64,000 nt of DNA, taken from Sandaracinaceae bacterium. GTDB lineage: Bacteria > Myxococcota_A > Polyangia > Polyangiales > Sandaracinaceae. A program made the translations under genes and the position numbers. Below are positions 39,942 through 55,031 of the stretch, piece by piece. The notes under the pieces are model-generated. The model did not search any database. It worked only from the letters and a program-made list of their open reading frames with translations, and was not told the DNA's origin. Position 1 is the stretch's first letter. Each line of letters starts with the position of its first letter. The stretch lies in contig JAHBWG010000002.1 in the NCBI GenBank assembly GCA_019637095.1, forward strand, positions 62,001-126,000, read 5' to 3'.

Positions 39942-41069
39942 TCAGGGCCAGGGGCAGCCGTGGGGGCAGCCGTTCGCCGTCTCGTCGAGGGTCGCGATCC
40001 AGGCCTCGATCACGCGCAGCCCCTCCGGGTCGACCCTCTCGCTCGCGAGGGGCGGCATCGCGTCGGTCGGCGCGCGCGACCCCATGCGCAGCGGGATCAC
40101 GCTGCGCTCGGGGTGGCCAGGCGCGATGCGCAGATCGATCACCTCGCCGGCTGGGCCGGTGCCCGTCCACACCGAGCAGCCGCACACGGCGGTGGTCCAC
40201 GCGCTCGAGGTCTCCACGGTCCGGGTGCCCACGCGCAACCAGAGGTCGAGCCCGTGCTCCGGCGCCGGTCCGCCGTGGCAGCTCCCGCAGTTGGCGTGCA
40301 GGTATCCGAGCGCGGCGCGCGCGGTCGAGTCGCCCGGGACGGTCGCGTCCGCGAGCGGGATCGGGTGGGTGAGCCAGCCCTCTGCGCTCAGCGAGGCGAG
40401 CGTGACGCCGCCCTCGTCGTGGGCGAGCTGGATCGCCGAGAAGCCGTTGATCGCGTCGTCCTGCGCGATCGTGTGGCAGCGCACGCACGCCGCCCGCGTC
40501 GGGATGTCGTGCTCGGTCCCGAGGACGTTCTGCTCGCCGAACGGGCCGACCTCGGTGACGGATCGCTGATCGGCGCTCCATGCGTAGGCCACCATCGTCC
40601 AGGCGTCCCGACCGCGGCCGGTCCCCGTCTTCTCGAGCAGGCGTGTCTCGAGGCGCACGCCGCCGATCGAGAAGGTCTTGTAGAGCCGCGTGCCGCGCGG
40701 GAAGCCCCAGCGGTCGGGGTCGGAGGTGTCGATGCGGGTGCCCGGGGGCAGGTAGACGAAGCGCTCCTTGTCGTCGCCGTCGGACCAGAGCTCGAAGCGC
40801 GGGTGGAAGGGCTGGACCCCTTCGGCGAGCTCGGTGCAGGAGCCCGCGACGTAGAGCCCGGGCGGACCGACGCAGCCCGCGGGCCCGGCGTCGGTCCCCG
40901 CGTCGGCCCCGGCGTCGGCGCCCGCGTCCGTGTCGGCGTCCGTGCCCGCGTCCGTCCCCGCGTCGCGGGGCGCGATCGTCCCCGCGTCCGCGCGCCCGCT
41001 GTCGACGGGGGACGGTGCGCCGTCGCAGGCGAGGGCGAGCAGGGCCAGGGCGAGGGGCGCACGGCGCAT
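39942..41069 (-). CDS. Dihaem cytochrome-like lipoprotein (SO2930-like)
   Basis: 375 residues. The signal peptide MRRAPLALALLALAC is a lipobox, followed by a (DAG) low-complexity linker (about 30-65). The body has LWSDGDDKERFVYLPPGTRID and FPRGTRLYKTFSIGG, patterns known from the SO2930-like dihaem family, and two haem c motifs, CVRCH (about 190) and CGSCH (about 250). It would carry electrons at the outer membrane or periplasm. It ends the three-gene haem-lipoprotein operon, with an 8-bp gap from the preceding gene. Confidence 0.87.
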   Translation of the reverse strand: MRRAPLALALLALACDGAPSPVDSGRADAGTIAPRDAGTDAGTDADTDAGADAGADAGTDAGPAGCVGPPGLYVAGSCTELAEGVQPFHPRFELWSDGDDKERFVYLPPGTRIDTSDPDRWGFPRGTRLYKTFSIGGVRLETRLLEKTGTGRGRDAWTMVAYAWSADQRSVTEVGPFGEQNVLGTEHDIPTRAACVRCHTIAQDDAINGFSAIQLAHDEGGVTLASLSAEGWLTHPIPLADATVPGDSTARAALGYLHANCGSCHGGPAPEHGLDLWLRVGTRTVETSSAWTTAVCGCSVWTGTGPAGEVIDLRIAPGHPERSVIPLRMGSRAPTDAMPPLASERVDPEGLRVIEAWIATLDETANGCPHGCPWP

Positions 41070-41077
41070 CCCGGGGC

Positions 41078-42940
41078 CTAACGCGCGAGGACGAGGGCCG
41101 CGTCGGTGGCCACGATGTGCTCGGGGGGAGCGCCGTCGCGCACGAGGAAGTAGAGCCATCCGTCGGAGCGGAAGTGCGGGAACAGCGCGAGCTGGCCCGG
41201 CTGCATGTTCGTCACGCGGGTGCGCGCCCCGGTGGCGATGTCGATCAGATAGACGTTCGACACGCCGAGATACGGTGCGAACCCCGGATCGCTCGGCCCG
41301 GTGAAGCCGAGGTCGACCGCGTCGGCGTCGGTCACGCGGTGATGGGTGACGAGCCAGCGATCGTCGAGGGAGAAGGCGGCCTTGCCGCCCGGCGTGCAGT
41401 ACCGACCGACCTCGACCAGCTCGACATCGGTGACGTCGCCCGAGCCGGCGCGCGCGACGTCGATGCGGTGGAGCACGAAGCCGAGGGGGTCGCCGTCGGC
41501 GTCGGCGAGCTGGGTCGCGACGAGGCGCATGGTGGGGGAGACCACCGCGTTCGCTTGCCAGGGCACGGAGAGCGAGAACACGCCCGCCGCGTCGAAGCCC
41601 GTGCCGGTGTTGACGAGGCGGTGCAGCCGGAGCGACGCGCCCGGTTCGGACATCACGGGCGGGTCCGTGAGCTCGTGCCCCGTGTCGCCGCTCCACAGGC
41701 TGTCCACGACCCAGTAGTCGCCGCCGTCGAGCGAGGCCCCGACGTGCTGGTAGAGGCCCAGCTCCGCGGCGCGCGAGCAGCCGGCCTCGCGGAAGGTGAT
41801 CCGCGTCGGCGAGGCGGCCGTGAGCACGCTCTGCTCGCAGACCGCGGGCCCGCGCGACGTGCCCTGGAACATGAAACCGGAGTTGTCGGGGAACCAACCC
41901 GGATCGTACCGCGCTTCGGCGGCCATCACGACGCCGCGCGCGAGATCTATGATCGAGGCGCCTGCGCGCGTGTCGTTGCCGCCGTGCGCGACGAAGCGCC
42001 CGTCCGCGGAGCTCTTCGTCCAGTAGCTCGTGCGGTAGGGCACCTGGAACAGCAGGCGCATGGTCGTGCCGGGCGTCTCCCAGCGCGCCCCGAACGCGAA
42101 GTCGGTCACGCGCGGGGAGTCGGCGAGGCAGCCCGACGGGTCCGCCGCGCCGGCGCACCCGTGCATGAGGAGCGCCGCCTCGCGGTTCCTCGCCGACCAC
42201 CCGCTGCGCGCGCCCTCGGCGACGAGCGCGATGACGGACGCGTCGACGTAGGGCGTGCACTCGCCGGGCCCGTCGAGCGACGGCAAGATCGTCTCGACCA
42301 ACGGGGTCCCGCGCAGGAACCACTCGGTCAAGAGGTCGAACTCCTCCTGCGTGAGCGCGGGGTGATCGTCGGGCGGCTGCTGCACGAGCGCGCGGAACGT
42401 CTCGTACTCGGTCTCCCAGCTCGCGCCGTGGGCGCGCCGGAAGGCGAACGGGAACCACGGCAGGCCCGCGCCCGTCGCGAACACGCCCGCGTTGCGCGGG
42501 GTGTAGCGATCGGCGGCGCGCAGGCACGCGAGCGCGGCCTGGGCCGCCTCGGTCGTCACGAGGTCGAGGTCTGCGAAGCAGGTGCGCCAGGCCCGCTCGG
42601 TGAGGTCCCAGAAGTGGCGGATGTTCGGCCGCGTGATCGCGTGACAGTCGCTGCAGCTCCCCGAGCCGCCGGCCTCCGGCGCGCCCATCAGCCTCAGCGC
42701 CGCGCTCGCCAGCTCGTCGTCCGGCAGATCGACGGGGTTGCGGAAGACCGGCGCGAGCTCGTAACCGGCGTCGAAGCCGGCGTCGAAGCCCGCGTCGATC
42801 CCGGCGTCGGTCCCGCCGTCGGTGCTCGCGTCGAGGCCTCCGTCACCGCCCGCTCCGGCGTCGGTGGCGGGATCGGAGTCACACCCCGCGAGCGCGAGGA
42901 GCGAGACGAGGACGAACGACGGACAGCAGCGGGCGTTCAT
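41078..42940 (-). CDS. Haem-motif lipoprotein with propeller-like domain
   Basis: 620 residues. A lipobox signal (VSLLALAGC), then an Asp/Ala/Gly linker with repeated DAGFDAG units. One haem motif, CSDCH, lies near residue 100. The C-terminal 350 residues have propeller features (SADGRFVAHGGNDTRAGASIID, SLDDRWLVTHH, SNVYLIDIATGARTRVTNMQPGQLALFPHFRSDG), TolB-like. Probably an electron carrier or substrate-binding surface protein. It overlaps the upstream gene by four bases (ATGA), so is co-translated. Confidence 0.85.
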   Translation of the reverse strand: MNARCCPSFVLVSLLALAGCDSDPATDAGAGGDGGLDASTDGGTDAGIDAGFDAGFDAGYELAPVFRNPVDLPDDELASAALRLMGAPEAGGSGSCSDCHAITRPNIRHFWDLTERAWRTCFADLDLVTTEAAQAALACLRAADRYTPRNAGVFATGAGLPWFPFAFRRAHGASWETEYETFRALVQQPPDDHPALTQEEFDLLTEWFLRGTPLVETILPSLDGPGECTPYVDASVIALVAEGARSGWSARNREAALLMHGCAGAADPSGCLADSPRVTDFAFGARWETPGTTMRLLFQVPYRTSYWTKSSADGRFVAHGGNDTRAGASIIDLARGVVMAAEARYDPGWFPDNSGFMFQGTSRGPAVCEQSVLTAASPTRITFREAGCSRAAELGLYQHVGASLDGGDYWVVDSLWSGDTGHELTDPPVMSEPGASLRLHRLVNTGTGFDAAGVFSLSVPWQANAVVSPTMRLVATQLADADGDPLGFVLHRIDVARAGSGDVTDVELVEVGRYCTPGGKAAFSLDDRWLVTHHRVTDADAVDLGFTGPSDPGFAPYLGVSNVYLIDIATGARTRVTNMQPGQLALFPHFRSDGWLYFLVRDGAPPEHIVATDAALVLAR

Positions 42941-44583
42941 GGCGAGCTCCAGTAGTCGACGACGTCTTGCATCGTCGCCGCGAGGTCGTCTCCGGCGTCG
43001 AGCCCCCAGCATCCATCGGCCGGGTAGTTGTTGCGAGCGGCGAGCCGGCCGTTCGAGGGGAAGCGCACGGGGTCGGTGGCGATCTCACCGGGCCGCGCGC
43101 CCCCCATCGCGTGCTGGTGGCAGCCGACGCAGTTCCCGCGGGCCAGGCCGGGGGCGGCGTCGATGTACGGGTTCGAGCACCACGTCGGGCCGCCGCGCCC
43201 CTCGTACGCCGCCGCGAGGGCGGCCCCGAGGCTGGGCGCGTCGTCTGCGAAGCCGCCCTGCGGATCGGGATCGAGCTCCTCGTGATCGACCGCCACGCAC
43301 ATCTTGTAGCTCGACCAGGGCCCGCCGAGCGCGCGGATCGACTCGGGGCGGTCCGCGCCGAAGTCCTCGTCGGGCCGATCCGACCACCACAGCGTGATCG
43401 CGAGGCCGAGCGGGAGCTCGCGCGTGCGGATGTGCAGGCCTGCGAGCACGAACGTCGCTCCGTCCCGCAGCGTGAGCGTGTGGATGGCCTCGGGACCGGG
43501 TTGGGCCGCGCCGTCACCCTCGCCCCAGGTCGGCGCCTCGTCCTCGAGCGCCCGCGCGAGCCCGTCCGCCGAGGTGTCGTACGTCGGCAGCGGACGCGCC
43601 GGATCGAGGCGCCGCCACTCGGCCGCGATCGAGACGGCGTCGAGCGGCAGCGCGCCGGCGAGGCACGCGACCGGCGGGACGGTCTCGGTGCGGCTGACCT
43701 CGAGGACCACCGAGGCCGGACCTTCGTCGGCGCGCACCGACAAGGAGATTTGCGAGGGACCTGACGCGACGCAGCGCGTCGCGTCGTCGCAGATCGAGCT
43801 CCCCGCCGGCCCCTCGGTCATCACGACGCGCGCGCCGGCGCCGGCCAGGGCGGCCTCGAGCGAGGCGCCGCGCGGGACGAAGAACGGCCCGAAGCGCGCT
43901 TCCCCACAGGCCTCGAGGGCGATCGGGGCGCGCAGCAGGCGATCGGTGCGCGACACGCCCGCGAGCTCGGCGGGCGGCGCTCCGTCCTCGAGGCAGCGCA
44001 GCACCTCGGGGTAGCTCTCTGCGAGGTGTCGGGTCATCGACGGGCTCATGGCGATGCGATGGATCCCGCCGAGCGCGCTCACGGCCTCCGGCGTGTCGAG
44101 CGACGCCAGGTAGTCGTCCCACCTCGCCTGCGGCCAGGTGCCGAGCGCGTCGAGGAAGCCGACGTTCGCGGCGAAGGCGTCGTCGACGCGCCCCGCGGGG
44201 AAGCGCGCGCGCGCGGCGCGCTCAGCCGGTGTCAGCCCGGCGTAGAGGTGCTGGAAGATGCGCCCGAAGTCCTCTCGATCGTAGAAGGTGCGCCAGCGCG
44301 GGACGCTCGCCTCCCCGAGCGGGGTCGGCTCGGTCAGCGGCGCGGGCGCGAGCACGCGCGCGACCGCGGCCCACGCGACCGCGCGCCGCGCCCGCTGCGA
44401 CGCGGTGAGCTCCTCGAGGCGCCCCTCGAGGCTCGGGTCCGCGGGGTAGGCGGCGGCCAGCCCGAGCAGCCGGCGATCGGGCGCGGAGGCCTCCTCGGTC
44501 GCGCCGCCGATGGCGCGCTCGCACGCGGGCTCGCTCGGGCCGCATGCGGCCAGCAGGAGCGCGAGCGCAGGGGTCCGCCACAT
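42937..44583 (-). CDS. Monohaem cytochrome-like lipoprotein
   Basis: 548 residues. It starts MWRTPALALLLAACGP, a lipobox signal. The first half is helical (TDR, FYDREDFGRIFQHLYAGLTPAE) and unrecognised; the haem c motif CVGCH (in LARGNCVGCHQHAMGG) is near residue 485. The WSSYKMCVAVDHEEL and ARFGPFFVPRGASL segments are not familiar. It is the first gene of the operon, with its start 130 bp from the divergent VanW gene. Confidence 0.83.
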   Translation of the reverse strand: MWRTPALALLLAACGPSEPACERAIGGATEEASAPDRRLLGLAAAYPADPSLEGRLEELTASQRARRAVAWAAVARVLAPAPLTEPTPLGEASVPRWRTFYDREDFGRIFQHLYAGLTPAERAARARFPAGRVDDAFAANVGFLDALGTWPQARWDDYLASLDTPEAVSALGGIHRIAMSPSMTRHLAESYPEVLRCLEDGAPPAELAGVSRTDRLLRAPIALEACGEARFGPFFVPRGASLEAALAGAGARVVMTEGPAGSSICDDATRCVASGPSQISLSVRADEGPASVVLEVSRTETVPPVACLAGALPLDAVSIAAEWRRLDPARPLPTYDTSADGLARALEDEAPTWGEGDGAAQPGPEAIHTLTLRDGATFVLAGLHIRTRELPLGLAITLWWSDRPDEDFGADRPESIRALGGPWSSYKMCVAVDHEELDPDPQGGFADDAPSLGAALAAAYEGRGGPTWCSNPYIDAAPGLARGNCVGCHQHAMGGARPGEIATDPVRFPSNGRLAARNNYPADGCWGLDAGDDLAATMQDVVDYWSSP

Positions 44584-44713
44584 CGCGACGCCCAATGTAC
44601 TGGAGGCGCGGGCGCCGCGCGACGCGGCGGTCGCGCTCGCGCACGTGTCGGCCGAGGATCGGCCGGGCCCGACGGGGAATGACGCAGGGGGTGGGCCGCG
44701 TACGAAGCGGGGG

Positions 44714-46444
44714 ATGGGCCGAGCTCGCAAGCTGCCGTTCGCGTTGCGCGCCGCCGTCCACTCGGCGCTGCGCAGGGTGGCGGATCTCCAGGCGCCTTGC
44801 CCCGCGGGGCGGCGACGGGACGTGCTCGACGCGTCGTGGCGGGTGATCGGCGCGAGCCGGACGGCGCTCTGGCCGGCCGCGCTCGGGCCGGAGGCGCGCC
44901 TGGTCGCCGGCAAGGTGGAGAACCTGCGGGTCGCGACGGCGCGGCTCGGGCGGCGCGAGCTCGCGGCAGGTCAGGTGTTCTCGTTCTGGCGGCACGTCGG
45001 CCGCCCTTCGCGGCGCGCGGGGTTCGTGATCGGGCGCGAGCTGCGCGAGGGCTGCCTCGTCCCGAGCGTGGGCGGTGGGCTGTGCCAGCTCTCGAACGCG
45101 CTCTACGACGCGGCGCTGAGCGCGGGGCTCACGATCGTCGAGCGGCATGCGCACTCGGCGGTGGTCGCTGGATCGCTCGCCGAGCGCGGGCGGGACGCGA
45201 CGGTGTTCTTCCCGTACGTCGATCTGCGCTTCACCGCGCCGTTCCCGTACGCCGTCGAGGCGCGGATGAGCGCGGACGAGCTCGTCGTCGAGATCTTCGC
45301 GCGCTCGGGCCGGGCTCGCCGCGCCGCGCCGCGCGCGTCGCGCTGCGTCGAGCGCGCGAGCGAGGGGATCGGGAGCTGCCACTCGTGCGGGGTCGCGCGG
45401 TGTTCGTCCTACGCACCAGCGCTCGCGGGTGGGCCGCGCGGGGAGACCGCGTTCCTGCTCGACCGCTGGACGCCGGAGCACGACGCCTGGGTGTCCGCGC
45501 GGCGGCGCGAGGGCGACCTGCTCTTCATCCCCGCCGACGGCGGCCGCCGGGGCCGCGCCAGCTACCGCTGGGCGACGGAAGGCTTCGCCGAGGTCCGCGA
45601 GCACCTCGCGGTCACGCTCGCGCGCGCGCTCGCGTCGCGGCGGCTCGCCGAGCAGGGCGCGCAGCGTCAACGAGCATTGCTATCCTACGACGCGCGGCTC
45701 GCCGCGGCGATGGCGCGCGGGCTCGACCCCGGCGTCCGCCACCTCGTGGTCCAGCAGACGCTGTTGCCGCACCTCGAGCGGCTCGGCGCGCTCGGCGGAC
45801 GAACCGTCGACGTCCTCGCGACGCGGCTGCCGCTCGCGGCGCTGCACGCCCGGCTCGACGCGGCCGCGCGCCGCCACCCGCGCAGTCCGACGATCGCCGA
45901 CTTCCGGGCGCCTGCCGCGCTCGTCGAGGCAGAGCGCCGGGCGTTGACCCGCGCCGCCCGCGTCGTCACGCCGCACGCGGAGATCGCGCGCTGCGTCGGG
46001 CCGCGCGTCGAGCGCGTGGCCTGGGCGCGCTCGGTCCTGCCGCCCGCCGATCGCGGCGCGTACGTCGTCACCCTCGGGCCGATCGCCGCGCGCCGCGGCG
46101 CGCTCGAGCTGCGCGAGGCCCTGCGAGGGCTCGGCGCGACGCTCCGGGTGACCGGCCGCGACCTCGAAGGCGGCTTCGACTTCGGTGTCCCGCTCGCACC
46201 GCCGTCGCACGACCCGCTCGCGGGGGCGCGCGTCGTCGTCGCCCCGGCGTGGGTCGAGCACGAGCCCCGCGCCCTCTTGAGCGCGCTCGATCGCGGCGTG
46301 CCCGTCATCGCCTCCCGCGCCTGCGGGCTCGGCGCGCTCGAGGGGGTCACCGAGATCGCGCCCGGCGACGTCGCCGGGCTGCGCGCCGCGCTCTGCGCTC
46401 ACCTCGAGGGCCGGCCGGGCGCGCAGCGCGAGGCGCGTCGATGA
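44714..46444 (+). CDS. VanW-glycosyltransferase fusion protein
   Basis: 576 residues from ATG 44714 with GGGGG just upstream. The first part (about 1-220) is VanW: GQVFSFWRHVGRPS and VGGGLCQLSNALYDAALSAGLTIVERHAHS are the family hallmarks. A Cys cluster (SCHSCGVARC) follows. The last 250 residues look like a GT-B glycosyltransferase (GT4): RVVTPHAEIARCVGP, VVTLGPIAARRGALELREAL and VEHEPRALLSALDRGVPVIASRACGLGAL, the acceptor-side Glu loop. VanW function is unknown (vancomycin-resistance operons); fusion to a transferase suggests wall- or polymer-related glycosylation. No transmembrane segment or signal peptide is obvious. Confidence 0.83.
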   Translation: MGRARKLPFALRAAVHSALRRVADLQAPCPAGRRRDVLDASWRVIGASRTALWPAALGPEARLVAGKVENLRVATARLGRRELAAGQVFSFWRHVGRPSRRAGFVIGRELREGCLVPSVGGGLCQLSNALYDAALSAGLTIVERHAHSAVVAGSLAERGRDATVFFPYVDLRFTAPFPYAVEARMSADELVVEIFARSGRARRAAPRASRCVERASEGIGSCHSCGVARCSSYAPALAGGPRGETAFLLDRWTPEHDAWVSARRREGDLLFIPADGGRRGRASYRWATEGFAEVREHLAVTLARALASRRLAEQGAQRQRALLSYDARLAAAMARGLDPGVRHLVVQQTLLPHLERLGALGGRTVDVLATRLPLAALHARLDAAARRHPRSPTIADFRAPAALVEAERRALTRAARVVTPHAEIARCVGPRVERVAWARSVLPPADRGAYVVTLGPIAARRGALELREALRGLGATLRVTGRDLEGGFDFGVPLAPPSHDPLAGARVVVAPAWVEHEPRALLSALDRGVPVIASRACGLGALEGVTEIAPGDVAGLRAALCAHLEGRPGAQREARR

Positions 46445-46447
46445 AGC

Positions 46448-47785
46448 TCAGTCCACGCGGCGGAGCTTGTCGAGCATCGCGTCGGCGTCGATGAAGCCCG
46501 TCACGCGGTCGACCTCCTCGCCGTTCGAGCCGTGCAGGACGACGAGCGGCAGGCCGTGCTGGTTGTACTGCGCCAGGAGCTGCTGGCCGCGGCGGACGTC
46601 CTGCCCCGGGCTCAGGTCCACGCGCACGGGCACGAAGCGTCGGCCCTCCGCGACCACGCGCGGATCGGAGAACGTGTTGCGCTCGAGCTCTTGGCAGGCC
46701 TGGCACCACGACGCGCCGAAGTCGACGAGGAGCGGCCGCCCCTCGCGCTGCGCGAGCTCGCGCGCCTCCTCGTAGCTCGTCATCCACTCGATCTCGGCGT
46801 GCGTGGCGCCGTTGGCGGAGGCGGTCTCGGGCGCCGCGTTGAGCCACATCGCGATGCCCGCCGCGCCGACGACCGACAGCACGATGCCGGTGGTCTTGCG
46901 CGCGATCGTGCCCTTGCCCGCGCCGTGGTAGCTGAGGTGCACCGCGCCGAGCGCGAGCCCGATCAGGAGCATCCCGCTGAGCGCGCCGAGGAAGAGCCAG
47001 TTCTTGTCGACCAGCTCCGACAGTCCGATGAAGTCCTTCAGGAACCAGAGCGCCGCGGCGACCATCACGATGCCGAAGAAGCTCTTGACCCACTCCATCC
47101 AGCGGCCGCTCTTGGGCAGGCTGATCGCGAAGGTGCCCACGAGCCACGTGGGCAGGCCGACACCGAGCGCGTAGACGAAGAGGGCGAGGCCGCCGAACAC
47201 GACGCTCTGGGTCGTCGCGATCCAGGCGAGCAGACCGCTGAGCACCGGGCCCGTGCACGGGGCCGCGATCAGCCCGCCGACGAGCCCGAGCACGAACGCG
47301 CCCTTCGGGCCGAGGCCACCCATCGTCGCCAGCTTGTTCTGGATCGACGGCGGCAGCGCGAGCTCGAACGCGCCGAACATCGCGGCGGCCATGACGATGA
47401 AGAACACCGCCATGGGCACGACCACGTACCACTCGGCGAGGGCCGCGCCGAAGATCCCGCCGCCGAGCGCGGCGACCATCCCGAGCGGCGTGAAGAGCGC
47501 GCAGATCCCGAGCACGTACATGCTCGAGAGGAAGGCGCCGTGCGCTTTGCTCTTGGCCTCGCGCGCGCCGAAGATGCTCACGGTGATCGCGATCATCGGG
47601 TAGACGCAGGGCGTCAGCGCGGTGAGGAGCCCACCCAGGAACATGATCCCGAGCGCGACACCCCAGCTGCCGGAGCTGAGGGCCTCCTCGACGCCGAGCT
47701 CGGCGGCGAAGTCCGCTCGCGCCGCCGCGGCGACGAGAAGGACGGGCGTGGCGGCCAGGGCGGCGTTCAGCAGTCGTCGTTTCAT
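46448..47785 (-). CDS. dsbD: DsbD-like thiol:disulfide interchange protein
   Basis: 445 residues. A signal peptide is followed by eight-helix DsbD beta domain (TPCVYPMIAITVSIFGA at about 60, and APCTGPVLSG at about 180), whose two Cys move electrons across the membrane. The C-terminal thioredoxin-like gamma domain has SWCQACQELE near residue 350. The N-terminal alpha domain of E. coli DsbD is absent, as in short DsbD types. It delivers reductant to the periplasm, for Cys-rich protein folding or cytochrome c maturation, which fits the haem lipoproteins encoded on both sides. Convergent with the VanW fusion gene, three bases from its end. Confidence 0.92.
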   Translation of the reverse strand: MKRRLLNAALAATPVLLVAAAARADFAAELGVEEALSSGSWGVALGIMFLGGLLTALTPCVYPMIAITVSIFGAREAKSKAHGAFLSSMYVLGICALFTPLGMVAALGGGIFGAALAEWYVVVPMAVFFIVMAAAMFGAFELALPPSIQNKLATMGGLGPKGAFVLGLVGGLIAAPCTGPVLSGLLAWIATTQSVVFGGLALFVYALGVGLPTWLVGTFAISLPKSGRWMEWVKSFFGIVMVAAALWFLKDFIGLSELVDKNWLFLGALSGMLLIGLALGAVHLSYHGAGKGTIARKTTGIVLSVVGAAGIAMWLNAAPETASANGATHAEIEWMTSYEEARELAQREGRPLLVDFGASWCQACQELERNTFSDPRVVAEGRRFVPVRVDLSPGQDVRRGQQLLAQYNQHGLPLVVLHGSNGEEVDRVTGFIDADAMLDKLRRVD

Positions 47786-48124: not shown

Positions 48125-50380
48125 ATGACTCGACTGATGAACAAGGGTGCGATTGCGGTGCTGGCCGCGCTCGTGGCCCTGCCGCTCGCCGCGTGCAGCG
48201 ACGACGGCGTCGGAACCAGCGTGGTGCCCAACGTCGAGGCGATCGTCTTCGTCTCGCGCGCCTTCGAGCGCGCCGACGGGTCGCACAACGTGACGGGCGG
48301 GAACAACCAGACCATCGACTACCTGCGCTACGAGCCGGGTGGCGGCCTGATGCTCCTGTCTCCGCCCACCCCGAGCGGGACGCTCACCGATCTCACCGCG
48401 GAGGCGGGGTTCGAGGGCGTCGACATCAACGGCATCGACCTGAGCTTCGACGCCCGCCAGGTCGTCTTCTCGATGCAGCACGCGGGTGACAACCGCTACC
48501 ACGTCTACCTCGCGAACCTCGACGGCTCGGGGATCCGGCAGCTCACGTTCGGCGACTACCACGACGTGATGCCCATCTTCGTGCCCGGCAACCGCATCGC
48601 GTTCGTGACGAACCAGCCGTACACCGCGATGGGCACCCGCGCCGACGAGTACAACCACTCGCGCGTCGTGACGCAGATCGCGACGATGGATCTCGCGGCC
48701 GGCGACGCGAGCCGTCACCTCTGCTCGCAGAACCTCTCGCACACCGCGCTGCCGACCTTGCTGAGCGATGGCCGCATCGGCTTCTCCCGTTGGGAGCACC
48801 TCGGCCCGGTCAACGACGTGAAGTTCTTCGCGATGAACCCCGACTGCACCGACATGGTCGCGATCGCGGGCCAGTTCGGGAAGGGCTTCAACTCGATCGT
48901 GCAGGCGCAGGAGGTCGAGCCGGGCGTGTTCGTCAGCATCGCGACGAGCCGCCGCGGCACCATCCAGGGCGGCGCGGTGATGCGCATCGACGCGCGCTCG
49001 CGGACCTCGACGGACCCGCGCCTCTACGTCGACGTCCAGCAGGCGTCGTTCCGCAACCTCACGCCCGACGTGCCGACCGGCATGGAGTCGCCGGCGAGCG
49101 GCGTCGGCCGCTACCGCAACCCGCGGCCGCTCAACAGCGTCACCGGCAGCGAGGAGCTCTTGCTCGTGAGCTGGGCCAACGGCGACGTGAACGACCGCAA
49201 CGAGCTCGCGTCGACCGCGCCGAACTTCGGCGTCTACGTGCTCAACACCGACTCGGGCAACCGCACGCTCGTGTACGACAACCCGAACATGTGGGACCTC
49301 TACGCGATCCCGGTCGTCCCGCGCAACGAGCCGCCGGTCATCACCCCGACCGTCAGCAACCCGGACCCGACCGTCCCCGCGATCATCGGCTCGATCGACG
49401 TCACCTCGACCTCGCTCAACGAGACGGTCCGCGGCGCGCAGTTCGACGGCACCCCGCTGTCCGAGGCGCTCGGCCACGCGGTCCAGATGCGCATCATCGA
49501 GGGCTTCTCCTCGGAGATCGGCGCGGTCGGTCAGTTCGGCCTGACGATGCACGAGGGCGCCGCGATCCTCGGCGAGACCCCGATCCACGAGGACGGCTCG
49601 TGGCGCGCGGCCGTGCCGGCGTACCTGCCCTACCACCTCCAGCCCCTCGACCGGTACGGCCTCTCGATCCGCAACCAGATGCTCTGGATCCAGGCGATGC
49701 CCGGGGAGACCCGCAACTGCGGCGGCTGCCACGAGTCGCGCTCCGCGCAGACCCTGCCGCGCGTCGGCTCGACGACCCTCGCGCAGCAGGTCGGCGCCGA
49801 CATGACGACCTTCCGCGCGATCGCCGACCGCATCGAGCTGCCCTGGTACGGCGCCGCGAGCCGCGAGAACGTGCAGGACGTCCTCGACCGCAACTGCGTC
49901 GAGTGCCACGACGGTGGCGCGCGCGACCCGTACGCGGGCCGCTTCTACACCGTCGAGGTCACGACGATGGAGGGCGAGATGCTGGAGTACCAGATCCCGT
50001 ACCTCGACCTCAGCGACCGCCCCCTCGAGGTCTTCTACGAGAACGAGGTCGTCAACTACCCGGCCAGCTACGTCTCGCTGCTCTACATCTCCGCGATGAT
50101 GGGCGACTCGACGGCGACCGGTGACGTCCCGCCGGAGTGGATCGTGCCCGGCGCCGCGCGCAACTCGCGCCTCATCGAGGTCATGAACATGATCGGGACC
50201 GACGCGTCCGACCTCGCCTGGGGCTCGCGCCCGATGCACCCCGAGGATCAGGGCAGGACGGTGACCCGCGAGGATCGCCTCGCCCTCATCCGGAGCGCGG
50301 ACCTCGGCGGCCAGTACTACTCGCGCTGGAACGTCGCGGGCGGCATGTGGGCCGGCGTCGAGAGCTACCCGGCCCCCTGA
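48125..50380 (+). CDS. Hydrazine-synthase-alpha-like haem lipoprotein
   Basis: 751 residues from ATG 48125 (RBS GGAGG, 5-base spacing). The signal peptide ends LVALPLAACSD. A TolB/propeller-like region (DARQVVFSMQHAGDNRYHVYLANLDGSGIRQLTFGD, FFAMNPDCTDMVAIAG) covers about 40-400. A later domain (DGSWRAAVPAYLPYHLQPLD ... QAMPGETRNCGGCHESR, about 500-540) matches the hydrazine synthase alpha family (HZS_alpha), followed by a second haem motif NCVECHDGG near residue 590. The enzyme identity is not implied: this organism is not an anammox planctomycete and no beta or gamma subunit is present. It is probably a surface redox protein. First gene of the 48-58 kb cluster. Confidence 0.86.
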   Translation: MTRLMNKGAIAVLAALVALPLAACSDDGVGTSVVPNVEAIVFVSRAFERADGSHNVTGGNNQTIDYLRYEPGGGLMLLSPPTPSGTLTDLTAEAGFEGVDINGIDLSFDARQVVFSMQHAGDNRYHVYLANLDGSGIRQLTFGDYHDVMPIFVPGNRIAFVTNQPYTAMGTRADEYNHSRVVTQIATMDLAAGDASRHLCSQNLSHTALPTLLSDGRIGFSRWEHLGPVNDVKFFAMNPDCTDMVAIAGQFGKGFNSIVQAQEVEPGVFVSIATSRRGTIQGGAVMRIDARSRTSTDPRLYVDVQQASFRNLTPDVPTGMESPASGVGRYRNPRPLNSVTGSEELLLVSWANGDVNDRNELASTAPNFGVYVLNTDSGNRTLVYDNPNMWDLYAIPVVPRNEPPVITPTVSNPDPTVPAIIGSIDVTSTSLNETVRGAQFDGTPLSEALGHAVQMRIIEGFSSEIGAVGQFGLTMHEGAAILGETPIHEDGSWRAAVPAYLPYHLQPLDRYGLSIRNQMLWIQAMPGETRNCGGCHESRSAQTLPRVGSTTLAQQVGADMTTFRAIADRIELPWYGAASRENVQDVLDRNCVECHDGGARDPYAGRFYTVEVTTMEGEMLEYQIPYLDLSDRPLEVFYENEVVNYPASYVSLLYISAMMGDSTATGDVPPEWIVPGAARNSRLIEVMNMIGTDASDLAWGSRPMHPEDQGRTVTREDRLALIRSADLGGQYYSRWNVAGGMWAGVESYPAP

Positions 50381-50412
50381 ACGGAACTGCGGAAGAACAA
50401 GTGGAGAACGTC

Positions 50413-51303
50413 ATGAAGCACTTCGATAAGGCCCTCCTCGCCGCGGTCATCCTCCTGGCCTCCCCGGCCGCGGCTCAGGACAACAACGACTCGTCTGCCG
50501 ACAACCAGTACGACCGCGCCCGCGGCGAGCTGAGCCCCGGCACCGGCGCGCCGACCCAGGCGCAGCTCATGCAGGTCATCGAGAGCGGCTCCTCGGAGCG
50601 CCTCGCCAGCCTGCTCGAGTACGGCGAGCTCGTGCAGTGCCACGCCTGCGTGCCGCTGCTCGAGCGCCGCCTCCTCGAGAGCGACGACGCCCTCACCCGC
50701 GAGATGGCGGCGTGGTGGCTCCGCCGCCGCCCCTTCGGGTTCGCCGCGGTGTTCCGCGACATCCGCACCGCGCTCGCGAACGACGCCAACCCCGTCCGCC
50801 GCGCGCGCGCCGCCGAGGCCCTCGGCGAGTTCATGGACCCGAACGGCGTCCGCTACCTCCGCGAAGCCATCGCTCGTGACGCGGACCCGCGGGTCCGTGC
50901 GGCGGCGGTCGCCGGCCTCGGCCGGATCAACTCGCCCGCCGGCATCCAGGGGATCGTCGAGGCGTTCTCCGACTCGGACGCCAGCGTGCGTGAGGCGGCG
51001 GTCGGTCAGGTCCTCTACGTGAACCTGTTCCGCGAGCACGACGCGCTCATGGGCCTCTTGGCCGACGAGAACGTCGACGTCCGGCGCCGCGCGGCGCTCG
51101 CCCTCGGGACCTTCCGCGTCGCGGAGGCGGCTCCGGCCCTCGTCGCGATGCTCGCCGACTCGGCGCCGATGGCGCGCCAGGCGGCCGCCTGGTCGCTCGG
51201 CCGCATCGGCGGCAGCGCCGCCCGCAACGCGCTCACCGAGCGCCAGACCCTCGAGACGATCTCCTACGTGCGCGACGCGATCGAAGTCGCGCTCCGCATG
51301 TAG
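50413..51303 (+). CDS. Exported HEAT-repeat protein
   Basis: 296 residues from ATG 50413 with GGAGA six bases upstream; a GTG at 50401 is an alternative. Signal peptide MKHFDKALLAAVILLASPAAAQ. Residues 55-280 carry HEAT/PBS-type helical repeats (NPVRRARAAEALGEF, DPRVRAAAVAGLGRINS, DVRRRAALALGTF, APMARQAAAWSLGRIGG). One CHAC segment near residue 75 has two Cys but no haem motif. Periplasmic HEAT proteins act as scaffolds. It sits 32 bp after the haem lipoprotein and before a strong terminator, so it ends that transcript. Confidence 0.87.
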   Translation: MKHFDKALLAAVILLASPAAAQDNNDSSADNQYDRARGELSPGTGAPTQAQLMQVIESGSSERLASLLEYGELVQCHACVPLLERRLLESDDALTREMAAWWLRRRPFGFAAVFRDIRTALANDANPVRRARAAEALGEFMDPNGVRYLREAIARDADPRVRAAAVAGLGRINSPAGIQGIVEAFSDSDASVREAAVGQVLYVNLFREHDALMGLLADENVDVRRRAALALGTFRVAEAAPALVAMLADSAPMARQAAAWSLGRIGGSAARNALTERQTLETISYVRDAIEVALRM

Positions 51304-51348
51304 TCGAGCTGCCCCGCGGGGTGGGACCGTCGGGTCCCGAAGGGGGAA

Positions 51349-51391
51349 ACGGGGCGCCTGGAGGAACTCCTCCGGGCGCCCCGTCTTTTTC
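51349..51391 (+). terminator. Strong rho-independent terminator
   Basis: A 16-bp stem (ACGGGGCGCCTGGAGG at 51349-51364 with CCTCCGGGCGCCCCGT at 51369-51384, one G.U pair), 4-base loop and CTTTTTC. It ends the haem-lipoprotein/HEAT transcript. A smaller hairpin (GGGACC/GGTCCC) precedes it at about 51322-51337. Confidence 0.9.
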
Positions 51392-51416
51392 ATTAGACTC
51401 ACCGTCGAGGAACACG

Positions 51417-54400
51417 ATGCGTAGGTTCTCCGCCCTGGCCCTCTCGATCTCCGGTCTCGCGCTGTCGGCGTGCCAGCAGTCCGACGACCCGGACTTCTCG
51501 TACTACGAGGAGCGGATCGGCCCGACCCTGACGAACGGCTGCGCGCGCGCGCCCGCGGGGAGCGGCTGCCACCTCGCGCGCCCGGACGGGACCGCGCTCG
51601 GGAACCTCGACGTCTCGAGCTACGACTCGCTCGCGCGGCGCTACGACGTGCTCGAGGCCTACGGGCCGTACTCCGTCAGCTTGCTGCTGCTCAAGGCGAG
51701 CGAGCCGATCGACATCAGCGTCGAGACCTGGGATCCGGTCAACCGCTTCGTCGACGTCACCACGGACATCCGGCACAACAACGGCCGCACGATCGACCGC
51801 GGCTCGCGCGGCTACGCGCAGCTCCAGCAGTGGATGACGGCGGGCTACGCGCGCAGCGGCGTGCACGACGAGACGCTCGCCGAGAACATCGGCGAGTGCG
51901 TCCGCGGCGCCGGCTCGCACGCGCTCTACACGCCGGGCTTCGGCGCGCGCTTCCCCGCGTCGTTCCAGCGCTTCCGCGACGAGGTGCAGCCCGTCTTGCG
52001 CCGCACGTGCGCGGGCAGCACGTGCCACGGCTCGCACATCGCCGACCTCTACTTCGCGTGCGGCGACGACGACGCGGAGCTCGACTGGAACTTCTGGATC
52101 GCGGTCTCGCACCTCACGACGCCGACCTCGACCTCGGAGCTGCTGCGCCGCCCGCTCTCCACCTTCCGCGGCGGCGTGTTCCACGAGGGCGGGAACGTGT
52201 TCGGGTCCGCGGAGGACGCCGACTACCGCACGATCTTCGCGTGGGCCGACGAGCTCGTCACCTCGCAGCCGGACGCCATCGCGCCGCCGACCGAGATCAC
52301 CGAGGGCCTGCGCTACTTCGCCAACCGCGTGCAGCCCGTGCTCGTCAGGAAGGGTTGCATGTTCCTGAACTGCCACAGCCCTTCGATGTTCCACGACCTG
52401 CGCCTGCAGGGCGGCGCGCAGGGCCACTTCGCGCGCGTCGCGACGTACCGCAACTACGACAGCGCGCGGCACCTCCTCGCGCTCGACGCTTCGAGCCCGA
52501 ACGAGAGCCGGGTGATCGCGAAGAACCTCTTCGCCCCCGAGCAGGTGCCCGGCAGCCCCGGGATCTTCCACCGCGGCGGCGCGCTGTTCGAGGACTTCGG
52601 CGAAGCCGGCGTGATCAACCCCGCGACGCCGGACGACTGCGCGGGCTTCGACGCCGACGCGGGCGACCTCAACGAGGTGCCGGCGTACTGCATCATGGTC
52701 CGCTGGCACGAGATCGAGCGCCAGGAGGCGATCGCGCGCGGTGAGCTCTTCCCCGCGGGCGAGGTCGTCCGCGGCGTCGCGTGGATCGCGCGCCCGCCTG
52801 GCGTCGGTGAGCCGCGCGACTTCGACACGTACCGGCCGGGCGCCGATCTCATGCTCGCGTCCGCGAGCGTCGACGGCGCGGGCGCGCTCAGCATCGGCGC
52901 GCCGGCGAGTGTGCTCTCCGGCTGCGGGCTCGACGCGGCGAGCGCGGACCTGCGCGGCCTCGCGGTCAGCTGGAGCGGGACCTCGCTCGCGTTCGGCGCG
53001 CGCTCGAGCGCGACGCAGCCGCTGCGGCTCTACCGGATGAACGCCGACGGAACCGGCTGCGCGCGCATCCCGGGGATCGCCGCCGACGCGGACACGCAGA
53101 ACGGCATCCTCACGCACGACTTCGATCCCGCCTTCGGCCCTGACGACACGCTCGTGTTCGCGTCGACGCGCGGCAACTCGGATCCGGCGATCCTCGGCTT
53201 CGCGGGCCCGACGCGGACGCCGGCCGCGATGCAGCCGAACGCGAACCTCTACGTCGTCGATCCGGGCGGCGAGGTCCGCCAGCTCACCTACCTGTTGAAC
53301 CAGGAGATCCAGCCCTCGTTCATGACGGACGGCCGCCTCATCTTCACCGCCGAGAAGCGGGAGCCGGACTTCCACCAGCTCGCGGGGCGGCGTCAGAACG
53401 TCGACGGCGGCGACTACCACCCGCTCTTCGCGCAGCGCGACAGCGTCGGCTACCGCATGGCGACCGAGATCGTGGAGCTGCTCGATCGCAACCTCGCGCT
53501 CGTCGCCGCGCCGCTCGACGCCGCCGACGGCGCCGGCCGGATCGTCATCGTCAACCGCTCGATCGGCCCCGACCAGAGCGAGCCGCGGCCCGATGGCGAC
53601 CAGTACTACATCGCCTCGCAGCGCATCCCCGTCGCGAGCGGCGCGTGGCGCTCGCCGTACCCGCTGCCCAGCGGGAGGATCCTCGTGAGCTGCGATCGCG
53701 GGGCGGGGAGCCTCACGGCCGGCGGCTACGCGTACCAGCTCTGCGAGCTCGACGCCGACAGCGGCGCCGTGCGCGAGGTCGGCGGCGTCGCGGGCCGCGC
53801 GAACATCCGCCCCGTCGCGATCTACGCGCGCGCCCACCGCGAGATCTTCGTGTCGCGCATCGACGAGGCGAACGGACACACCTACGTCGAGCGCGGGCAG
53901 ATCGACGCGGACGTCGAGGTCGTCGACTTCCCCGTGCTCGCGTCGCTGCTGTTCGAGAACACGCGCAACGGCCGGTCGATCTCGCAGGACATCGGCGGCG
54001 TGCGCGTCTTCGGCGAGTACCCGCCGCCGATGGGCGCGAGCTCGTTCGCCGACGTCGGGGGCATGGTCGTCGACGACGCCTTCGGGCGCGTGTTCCTCGA
54101 TCGCCGCGAGCTCGGCCACGTGCCGCTCAACCCGGACGGATCGACGCGCTTCCGGTACCGCGGCGGCCTCCCGATCGTGCTCGGCGTCACGGGCCGCGAC
54201 GGCAACCCCCTGGCCTTCGCGGACGGTGCGCCGTTCAGCGGCGAGGTGGTCCAGCGCGAGCAGATGCAGTTCTACCCGGGGGAGCGGGCGCACCAGTCCT
54301 TCCGCCGCCCGCTCTTCAACGGGATGTGCGGCGGCTGCCACGGCTCGATCTCGAACCGAGAGCTCGACGTCGTGGTGAACATCGACGTCCTGACGAGCGC

Positions 54401-54449
54401 CTCGCTCGCCGACTCCAACGGTCAGACTTCCCAGTCGCTTGGGCTTTGA
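51417..54449 (+). CDS. Large HZS-alpha-like lipoprotein with CX4CH motifs
   Basis: 1010 residues from ATG 51417, with GAGGAA eight bases before. The lipobox is GLALSAC. Two haem-like motifs read CAGSTCH (about 200) and CMFLNCH (about 318), so C-X4-CH rather than CXXCH; a third near the C-terminus is standard CGGCH. A TolB-like propeller region (YRMNADGTGCARIPG, LTHDFDPAFGPDDTLVFASTRG, EIQPSFMTDGRLIFTAEKREPDF) lies in the middle, and the C-terminal domain (VPLNPDGSTRFRYRGGLPIVLGV ... FYPGERAHQSFRRPLFNG) is related to the HZS-alpha-like part of the 48 kb protein. A paralogue with extra haem sites. It has its own start after a terminator, so is a new transcript. Confidence 0.86.
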   Translation: MRRFSALALSISGLALSACQQSDDPDFSYYEERIGPTLTNGCARAPAGSGCHLARPDGTALGNLDVSSYDSLARRYDVLEAYGPYSVSLLLLKASEPIDISVETWDPVNRFVDVTTDIRHNNGRTIDRGSRGYAQLQQWMTAGYARSGVHDETLAENIGECVRGAGSHALYTPGFGARFPASFQRFRDEVQPVLRRTCAGSTCHGSHIADLYFACGDDDAELDWNFWIAVSHLTTPTSTSELLRRPLSTFRGGVFHEGGNVFGSAEDADYRTIFAWADELVTSQPDAIAPPTEITEGLRYFANRVQPVLVRKGCMFLNCHSPSMFHDLRLQGGAQGHFARVATYRNYDSARHLLALDASSPNESRVIAKNLFAPEQVPGSPGIFHRGGALFEDFGEAGVINPATPDDCAGFDADAGDLNEVPAYCIMVRWHEIERQEAIARGELFPAGEVVRGVAWIARPPGVGEPRDFDTYRPGADLMLASASVDGAGALSIGAPASVLSGCGLDAASADLRGLAVSWSGTSLAFGARSSATQPLRLYRMNADGTGCARIPGIAADADTQNGILTHDFDPAFGPDDTLVFASTRGNSDPAILGFAGPTRTPAAMQPNANLYVVDPGGEVRQLTYLLNQEIQPSFMTDGRLIFTAEKREPDFHQLAGRRQNVDGGDYHPLFAQRDSVGYRMATEIVELLDRNLALVAAPLDAADGAGRIVIVNRSIGPDQSEPRPDGDQYYIASQRIPVASGAWRSPYPLPSGRILVSCDRGAGSLTAGGYAYQLCELDADSGAVREVGGVAGRANIRPVAIYARAHREIFVSRIDEANGHTYVERGQIDADVEVVDFPVLASLLFENTRNGRSISQDIGGVRVFGEYPPPMGASSFADVGGMVVDDAFGRVFLDRRELGHVPLNPDGSTRFRYRGGLPIVLGVTGRDGNPLAFADGAPFSGEVVQREQMQFYPGERAHQSFRRPLFNGMCGGCHGSISNRELDVVVNIDVLTSASLADSNGQTSQSLGL

Positions 54450-54479: not shown

Positions 54480-55031
54480 GTGCCTCTCCCGCCGCTGCTC
54501 GCGTTCGCGGTCCTGACCGGTCTCTTGGCCTCGCTCGCCGCTCGCCACGAGCTGCGGATGAGCCCGCGGCCCATCGTGCTCACGCGCGGGTTCGTCTCCT
54601 ACGTCTCCTACGCGTGCCTCGTCGTGGTGCCCATCTCGGTCTACTTCTACGTGTTCCACGGCGACTGGTTCCTGCTCTACACGATCGACGTGAGCCGGAT
54701 CCCGTCGGCGGTCGCCCTGGTCGGCTTCGTCGTCGAGGCGGCGCTCGGCGCGCTCGGGTTCCTCGCCGGCGCGCTCCTCGTGCGAAACCAGCGCGAGGTG
54801 GTGACCGGCGGGCTCGCCGGCGCGGTGCTCGTCGCCGGCGGCCTCGCCGTGCTGCCCTTCGCCGATCGCCTCGGCCGCGTCGGCACGCACGCGCAGTTCC
54901 ACGGGCAGTTCGGCGTCGTCGGCTACACGGACGGGGCGCTGTTGACCGGCGCCCTCGCGATGGGGGGCGTCGCCCTCGTCGGGCTCGGCGTGCTGCTCGC
55001 GCGGCTCTGGGTCACCGGCCGCGCGCGGTGA
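54480..55031 (+). CDS. Polytopic membrane protein of unknown function
   Basis: 183 residues from GTG 54480. Four to five hydrophobic segments (PLLAFAVLTGLLASLAA, ACLVVVPISVYFYVFH, ALVGFVVEAALGALGFLAGALLV, LAGAVLVAGGLAVLPFA, LLTGALAMGGVALVGLGVLLARLW). Polar loops are short; HGDWFLLYTIDVSRIPS and THAQFHGQFGVVGY contain His and Tyr that could be functional. I recognise no family. It follows the large haem lipoprotein by 30 bp on the same strand and may be its membrane partner. Confidence 0.8.
   Translation: MPLPPLLAFAVLTGLLASLAARHELRMSPRPIVLTRGFVSYVSYACLVVVPISVYFYVFHGDWFLLYTIDVSRIPSAVALVGFVVEAALGALGFLAGALLVRNQREVVTGGLAGAVLVAGGLAVLPFADRLGRVGTHAQFHGQFGVVGYTDGALLTGALAMGGVALVGLGVLLARLWVTGRAR

Follow-up and report, generated by a model that had tools for sequence, protein, structure and literature searches.

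Does a pair of haem lipoproteins resembling the alpha subunit of hydrazine synthase (HZS), encoded by a member of the Sandaracinaceae, represent a hydrazine synthase in a non-anammox bacterium, or the same fold put to another use? The pair, which we call P1 and P2, lies in a window of 64,000 nucleotides (the whole stretch of DNA that was analysed) and bears on two open questions, the origin of hydrazine synthase and the role of its haem alphaII. The enzyme has been proposed to descend from existing haem proteins (PMC12758564), and no function has yet been hypothesised for haem alphaII (PMC12607021).

Two lipoproteins related to the alpha subunit

The two proteins and their haem motifs are encoded as follows.

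48125..50380, + strand: P1, HZS-alpha-like lipoprotein of 751 aa (PF18582, 5C2V_A profile, AlphaFold model)
49718..49732, + strand: CGGCH of P1 (residues 532-536), equivalent by alignment to the haem alphaI site, followed by E-x-R and without an equivalent of Ser590-Tyr591
49895..49909, + strand: CVECH of P1 (residues 591-595), equivalent by profile alignment to the haem alphaII site
50237..50239, + strand: His705 of P1, which corresponds to the haem alphaII distal ligand His772 of HZS alpha, in 53/53 P1 sequences
51417..54449, + strand: P2, enlarged HZS-alpha-like lipoprotein of 1010 aa (model, profile against 5C2V_A)
51540..51572, + strand: atypical family-invariant motif CARAPAGSGCH of P2 domain 1, with candidate distal His120 at 51774-51776
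52008..52028, + strand: motif CAGSTCH (CX4CH) of P2 domain 2, with candidate distal His256 at 52182-52184
52356..52376, + strand: motif CMFLNCH (CX4CH) of P2 domain 3, with candidate distal His385 at 52569-52571
54327..54341, + strand: CGGCH of P2 (residues 971-975), alphaI-type haem motif

Both genes have the lengths and coordinates given in the original prediction and lie on the + strand, and the window sequence provides each product with a signal peptide and a lipobox (LAAC with Cys24 in P1, LSAC with Cys19 in P2) and each start with a purine-rich stretch on its 5' side.

P1 comprises a TolB-like six-bladed propeller, an HZS_alpha middle domain and an alphaII-type cytochrome domain, and scores 55.7 bits against the Pfam HZS_alpha family (PF18582), for which the gathering cut-off is 26.6. 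Against the NCBIfam equivalog NF052339, P1 reached 50.2 bits and P2 14.3 bits, both below the cut-off of 800. When the P1-family profile was compared with the PDB, the top match was 5C2V_A (E 5.4e-22), the runners-up being designed repeat propellers (E 5.6e-5). The AlphaFold model of P1 (pLDDT 89.3) aligned over residues 34-739 with residues 53-801 of 5C2V_A (Z 35.6, 574 residues, 2.9 A; TolB ~26) and covered all three domains of HZS alpha, and the alphaII domains of the two proteins aligned by hhalign at E 5.5e-26. The two CxxCH motifs of P1 are invariant across its family. Judging from this model, the structural homology between P1 and hydrazine synthase alpha extends over the full length of the protein.

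P2 was not matched in the Pfam search with PF18582, and its kinship is established by profile and structure only; the HMM check suggested for the pair therefore upheld P1 and failed for P2. Nevertheless, the top PDB match of the P2-family profile was 5C2V_A (E 1.7e-9), and the AlphaFold model of P2 (pLDDT 86.9) had its best match there as well, residues 350-1010 on 41-622 (Z 32.1, the TolB propeller reaching ~26). Nothing ranked above 5C2V_A for either model in the structural comparison, which barely covered the N-terminal domains of P2. The predicted relationship of both lipoproteins to HZS alpha is thus borne out, by both structure predictions among other evidence.

From its N-terminus, P2 is laid out as three cytochrome-like domains, a propeller and a middle domain with a CxxCH at its end, and judging from the alignment of its model to 5C2V_A it lacks the C-terminal alphaII domain. 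It aligned with P1 at E 1.7e-41 in the propeller and at E 4.7e-14 in the middle domain, and a search of its own genome with the P1-family profile found P2 and an unlinked P2 paralogue (E 1.5e-16 and 2.4e-21). Domains 1-3 are mutually homologous (E 1.2e-13 to 2.9e-7) and domain 1 is homologous to the alphaII domain of P1 (E 5.7e-7); the candidate distal residues His120, His256 and His385 align with one another, and that of domain 1 with His705 of P1. The haem motifs of P2 (one CxxCH, two CX4CH and one atypical CX6-8CH) are all invariant across the family. The atypical motif, in domain 1, is unusually spaced, reading CX8CH here and CX6CH in other family members, with both cysteines and the histidine invariant; it is a putative haem site, and residues 43-54 were modelled with pLDDT < 50. 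P2 is therefore a deep paralogue of P1 with three extra cytochrome-like domains, and the haem motifs expected in both proteins amount to six predicted sites, two in P1 and four in P2.

A gene unit kept across Myxococcota

The region between and around the two genes contains the following features.

50413..51303, + strand: exported HEAT-repeat protein of 296 aa, between P1 and P2 (Pfam HEAT_2, 115.8 bits)
50638..50649, + strand: CxxC of the HEAT protein (Cys76, Cys79), invariant in 50/50 sequences
51349..51391, + strand: terminator-like hairpin in the HEAT-P2 gap, with 16 pairs and a T run
54480..55031, + strand: membrane protein of 183 aa, downstream of P2, seen in close relatives only
46448..47782, - strand: DsbD-like thiol:disulfide/cytochrome c biogenesis protein, in divergent orientation to P1 (DsbD_TM, 169.6 bits)

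PF18582 matches were present in 76 of the 377 Myxococcota genomes that we surveyed, and many of these 76 contained two such matches, ~4.5 kb apart on the same strand. Among 40 named Myxococcota loci (GTDB genomes) with at least 5 kb downstream of P1, the HEAT gene came directly after P1 in every case (39 by start position, plus L103, the start of which was mis-called), with a median gap of 21 nt; in the window it begins 32 bases after P1. P2 followed P1-HEAT in 38 of the 40, order and strand being kept, and the arrangement occurs in records titled Polyangiaceae, Sandaracinaceae, Labilithrix, Kofleriaceae and Nannocystineae. Chance can be excluded, as the unit is kept phylum-wide at identities down to ~33%, and the genes are indeed conserved together across Myxococcota.

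The HEAT gene belongs to this conserved unit. It had been described, with a membrane protein, as flanking the lipoproteins; the HEAT gene lies between them, whereas the membrane protein is a lineage-specific neighbour, probably outside of the P1-HEAT-P2 unit. Conservation of the entire 48-58 kb gene order across myxobacteria, which had also been proposed, was not found, as only P1-HEAT-P2 is phylum-wide. The DsbD, membrane protein, OmpA, TPR-like and AMP-ligase genes, considered as a wider conserved context, are common to close relatives only, and in other lineages the trio has different neighbours. The DsbD-like gene likewise adjoins P1 in close relatives only, and it is possible that its product would fit cytochrome maturation, although it stands outside the unit. 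Further upstream in the window, three consecutive putative cytochrome lipoproteins with no Pfam match are encoded on the - strand (39942-44580; motifs CVRCH and CGSCH, CSDCH, and CVGCH) and are absent beside P1 in the relatives examined. Between them and the DsbD-like gene lies a gene (44510-46444) whose product has a VanW domain and, towards its C-terminus, a weak match to a glycosyltransferase.

The trio is not always intact. In the two loci without an adjacent P2 (L088 and L090), P2s are found elsewhere in the respective genomes, as is also the case in the genome of L060 and L076, and the genome of the window itself contains an orphan P2 paralogue (L151:9823-12723; G000:C186:22810-25722) with no P1 or HEAT gene nearby. 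As P2 can occur alone and P1-HEAT can occur with a distant P2, any complex need not have a strict 1:1:1 composition. The hairpin 3' of the HEAT gene is strong, and its presence suggests either that P1-HEAT and P2 are transcribed separately or that there is attenuation between them. In the HEAT family a WW pair is invariant besides the CxxC, and comparison with an anti-phage library returned generic HEAT matches only.

Active-site residues, partner genes and possible roles

We compared the residues known from hydrazine synthase in 20 anammox HzsA, 53 P1 and 20 other homologues. Tyr591, the proximal ligand of the active haem alphaI (PMC12607021), is present in 20/20 anammox sequences, 0/53 P1 and 0/20 other homologues. 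For the Zn ligand Cys303 (PMC12607021), the counts are 13/20, 0/53 and 0/20, in a loop of uncertain alignment. By contrast, His772 is found in 20/20, 53/53 and 16/20 respectively, and every P1 keeps both the haem alphaII CxxCH and this distal histidine. In P2, only 1 of 42 sequences has a tyrosine at positions +1 to +6 of the alphaI-type motif.

As had been predicted, there is no beta or gamma gene beside P1, and the best beta-gamma score anywhere in the genome of the window (96% complete) was 45.6 bits, where the cut-off of the model is 1250; weak matches in this search also arise in E. coli and B. subtilis. Three of four other Myxococcota genomes gave no beta-gamma match at E 1e-10, and the fourth gave a weak partial one. 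A beta-gamma homologue adjoins the alpha homologue in the planctomycete genomes of L129 and L131. Several MauG/CCP-like proteins with weak gamma resemblance were considered as gamma subunits and rejected, all being unlinked to P1 and far below the cut-off; among them are the MauG-like multidomain proteins at G000:C182 ~22642 (5C2V_C, E 3.7e-8), C143:112718 and C119:64768. A search with PF13447 (HAO/HDH) had no match in the genome of the window, nor in the control genomes. Since Tyr591 is absent from the P1s and no beta or gamma gene passes the cut-off, P1-HEAT-P2 is, as judged from sequence, not a hydrazine synthase.

We lean towards the view that P1, HEAT and P2 function together as a single unit, an electron-transfer pair of lipoproteins with a membrane anchor and six predicted c-type haems. 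Arguing for a single unit are the conserved gene order and six haem motifs, the aligned distal histidines and the CxxC found in every HEAT sequence, while the lone P2 paralogues and the HEAT-P2 hairpin count against it. Haem occupancy, and everything downstream of it, we infer from the anatomy of the proteins. Judging from the lipoboxes and the +2 residue, for which P1 favours Gly/Ser and P2 shows a mixture, both proteins would be lipid-anchored, probably in the outer membrane; as regards the surface complex of the original prediction, the lipoprotein signal predicts the membrane anchor alone. The three N-terminal domains of P2 and the C-terminal domain of P1 could hold bis-His haems passing electrons, the two alphaI-type haems may serve as the terminal sites at which electrons come in or go out, and the propellers could bind each other or a partner. 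The HEAT protein, through its invariant CxxC, might act as an assembly aid or as a link holding P1 and P2 together. More tentatively, we propose that the trio is a previously undescribed myxobacterial six-haem redox complex, in which a duplicated HZS-alpha fold is joined by a CxxC HEAT protein and the alphaII-type module has been multiplied for electron transfer; if so, P1, a deep relative of HzsA, would show a role of the alpha fold outside hydrazine synthesis.

An alternative, which we regard as unlikely but the strongest competitor, is that P1 is an enzyme acting on a small molecule, such as an organic substrate, hydroxylamine or a nitrogen oxide, at its alphaI-type haem, with P2 as its electron wire, in which case hydrazine synthase would be one specialised member of an enzyme family. 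Such a role would agree with the near full-length match of P1 to an enzyme subunit, with a DE-Y/F motif common to P1, HzsA and two planctomycete proteins, and with the broader family acting on other substrates suggested by the authors of PMC10732223, who also reported hzs-like genes. However, Tyr591 and Cys303 are missing from all P1s, so the alphaI pocket probably holds an ordinary c-type haem, and no metabolic genes are conserved in linkage with the unit.

It is less probable still that P1 and P2 are envelope binding or scaffold proteins built on TolB-like propellers, their haems being structural or sensing. The propellers do match TolB at Z ~26, HEAT repeats are typical scaffolds and very large secreted proteomes are found in the phylum (PMC11495043), but 5C2V_A ranks clearly above TolB for both models, and the invariant haem motifs, of which P2 has four and P1 two, together with the conserved distal histidines exceed structural need. 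That the locus encodes a true hydrazine synthase we consider to have next to no chance: P1 does have the same three domains as the alpha subunit and both of its haem sites, but Tyr591 is absent throughout, NF052339 reaches ~50 bits against 800, no beta-gamma subunit exceeds the cut-off and there is no HAO/HDH-type match (the search being equally silent in controls).

Comparison with known HZS-alpha proteins

HZS-alpha homologues in non-anammox bacteria have already been published, as clades I-IV spanning non-anammox Planctomycetota, Desulfobacterota and others (Hagglund et al. 2025, PMC12758564), which places these homologues in anaerobes and does not mention Myxococcota in its main text. The kind is therefore known, and the novelty implied by the original prediction narrows to the pairing of an alpha protein with a second, enlarged one in the place of beta-gamma; we found no description of this Myxococcota alpha-HEAT-alpha' unit in the titles and abstracts of the open-access literature.

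By tree analysis, P1, P2 and anammox HZS each fall on one side of a 100/100 branch. One tree placed P1 as sister to anammox HzsA and two planctomycete proteins (96/89); we do not claim this relationship, and with divergent rows added to the same tree the deep branching collapsed, with long branches meeting. The DE-Y/F propeller loop is present in 53/53 P1, its DE in 20/20 HZS and the loop in two other homologues, apparently planctomycete L129 and L131, and it is gapped in 18 of the 20 other homologues; being one loop, it hints at a closer kinship of P1 and HZS. The loop does not correspond to Asp168, as it lies at ~204 and Asp168 is beside haem gammaI.

Related sequences were also encountered elsewhere. 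L131, L134, L137, L141 and L143 (Planctomycetota, Armatimonadota, Lentisphaerota and Hydrogenedentota) contain a tandem pair of P1-like genes. The highest PF18582 match (E 5e-21) was in L002 (G311:C13), a member of another class of Myxococcota; one of the trees placed it next to anammox HZS, which may be an effect of long-branch attraction. On the Bacteroidota plasmids NZ_AP025307.1 and NZ_OY725748.1, P1-like sequence lies under genes annotated as SUMF1/EgtB/PvdO family nonheme iron enzyme.

TolB has the propeller fold in common with P1 and P2 but is without haem domains and is a clearly weaker match than 5C2V_A. The C-terminus of P2 (54327-54420) locally resembles cytochrome c550 (PsbV) through LFNxxCxxCHG (E 0.01), a likeness that spans only ~38 residues and is not significant alone.

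With the published clades, P1 shares the two-residue gap at Ser590-Tyr591 (clades I-III), the absence of Cys303 and, with clade I, the presence of two haem motifs. However, clade I is reported to lack His772, which all P1s have, and clades I-IV were chosen by an adjacent beta-gamma homologue, often with CRTAC1, in place of which the myxobacterial unit has a HEAT gene and an enlarged second alpha gene. HzsA itself (5C2V chain A) has in common with P1 a six-bladed propeller, a middle domain with CxxCH and a C-terminal CxxCH cytochrome domain with His772. In contrast to HzsA, the myxobacterial side is without Ser590/Tyr591, an equivalent of Cys303 and beta or gamma genes, and has a lipoprotein anchor and P2 and HEAT as partners. 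A conserved unit in which all P1s retain the alphaII site, P2 has several domains related to it and there is no hydrazine-forming ligand, P1-HEAT-P2 would offer an independent and testable case of the alpha fold without hydrazine chemistry.
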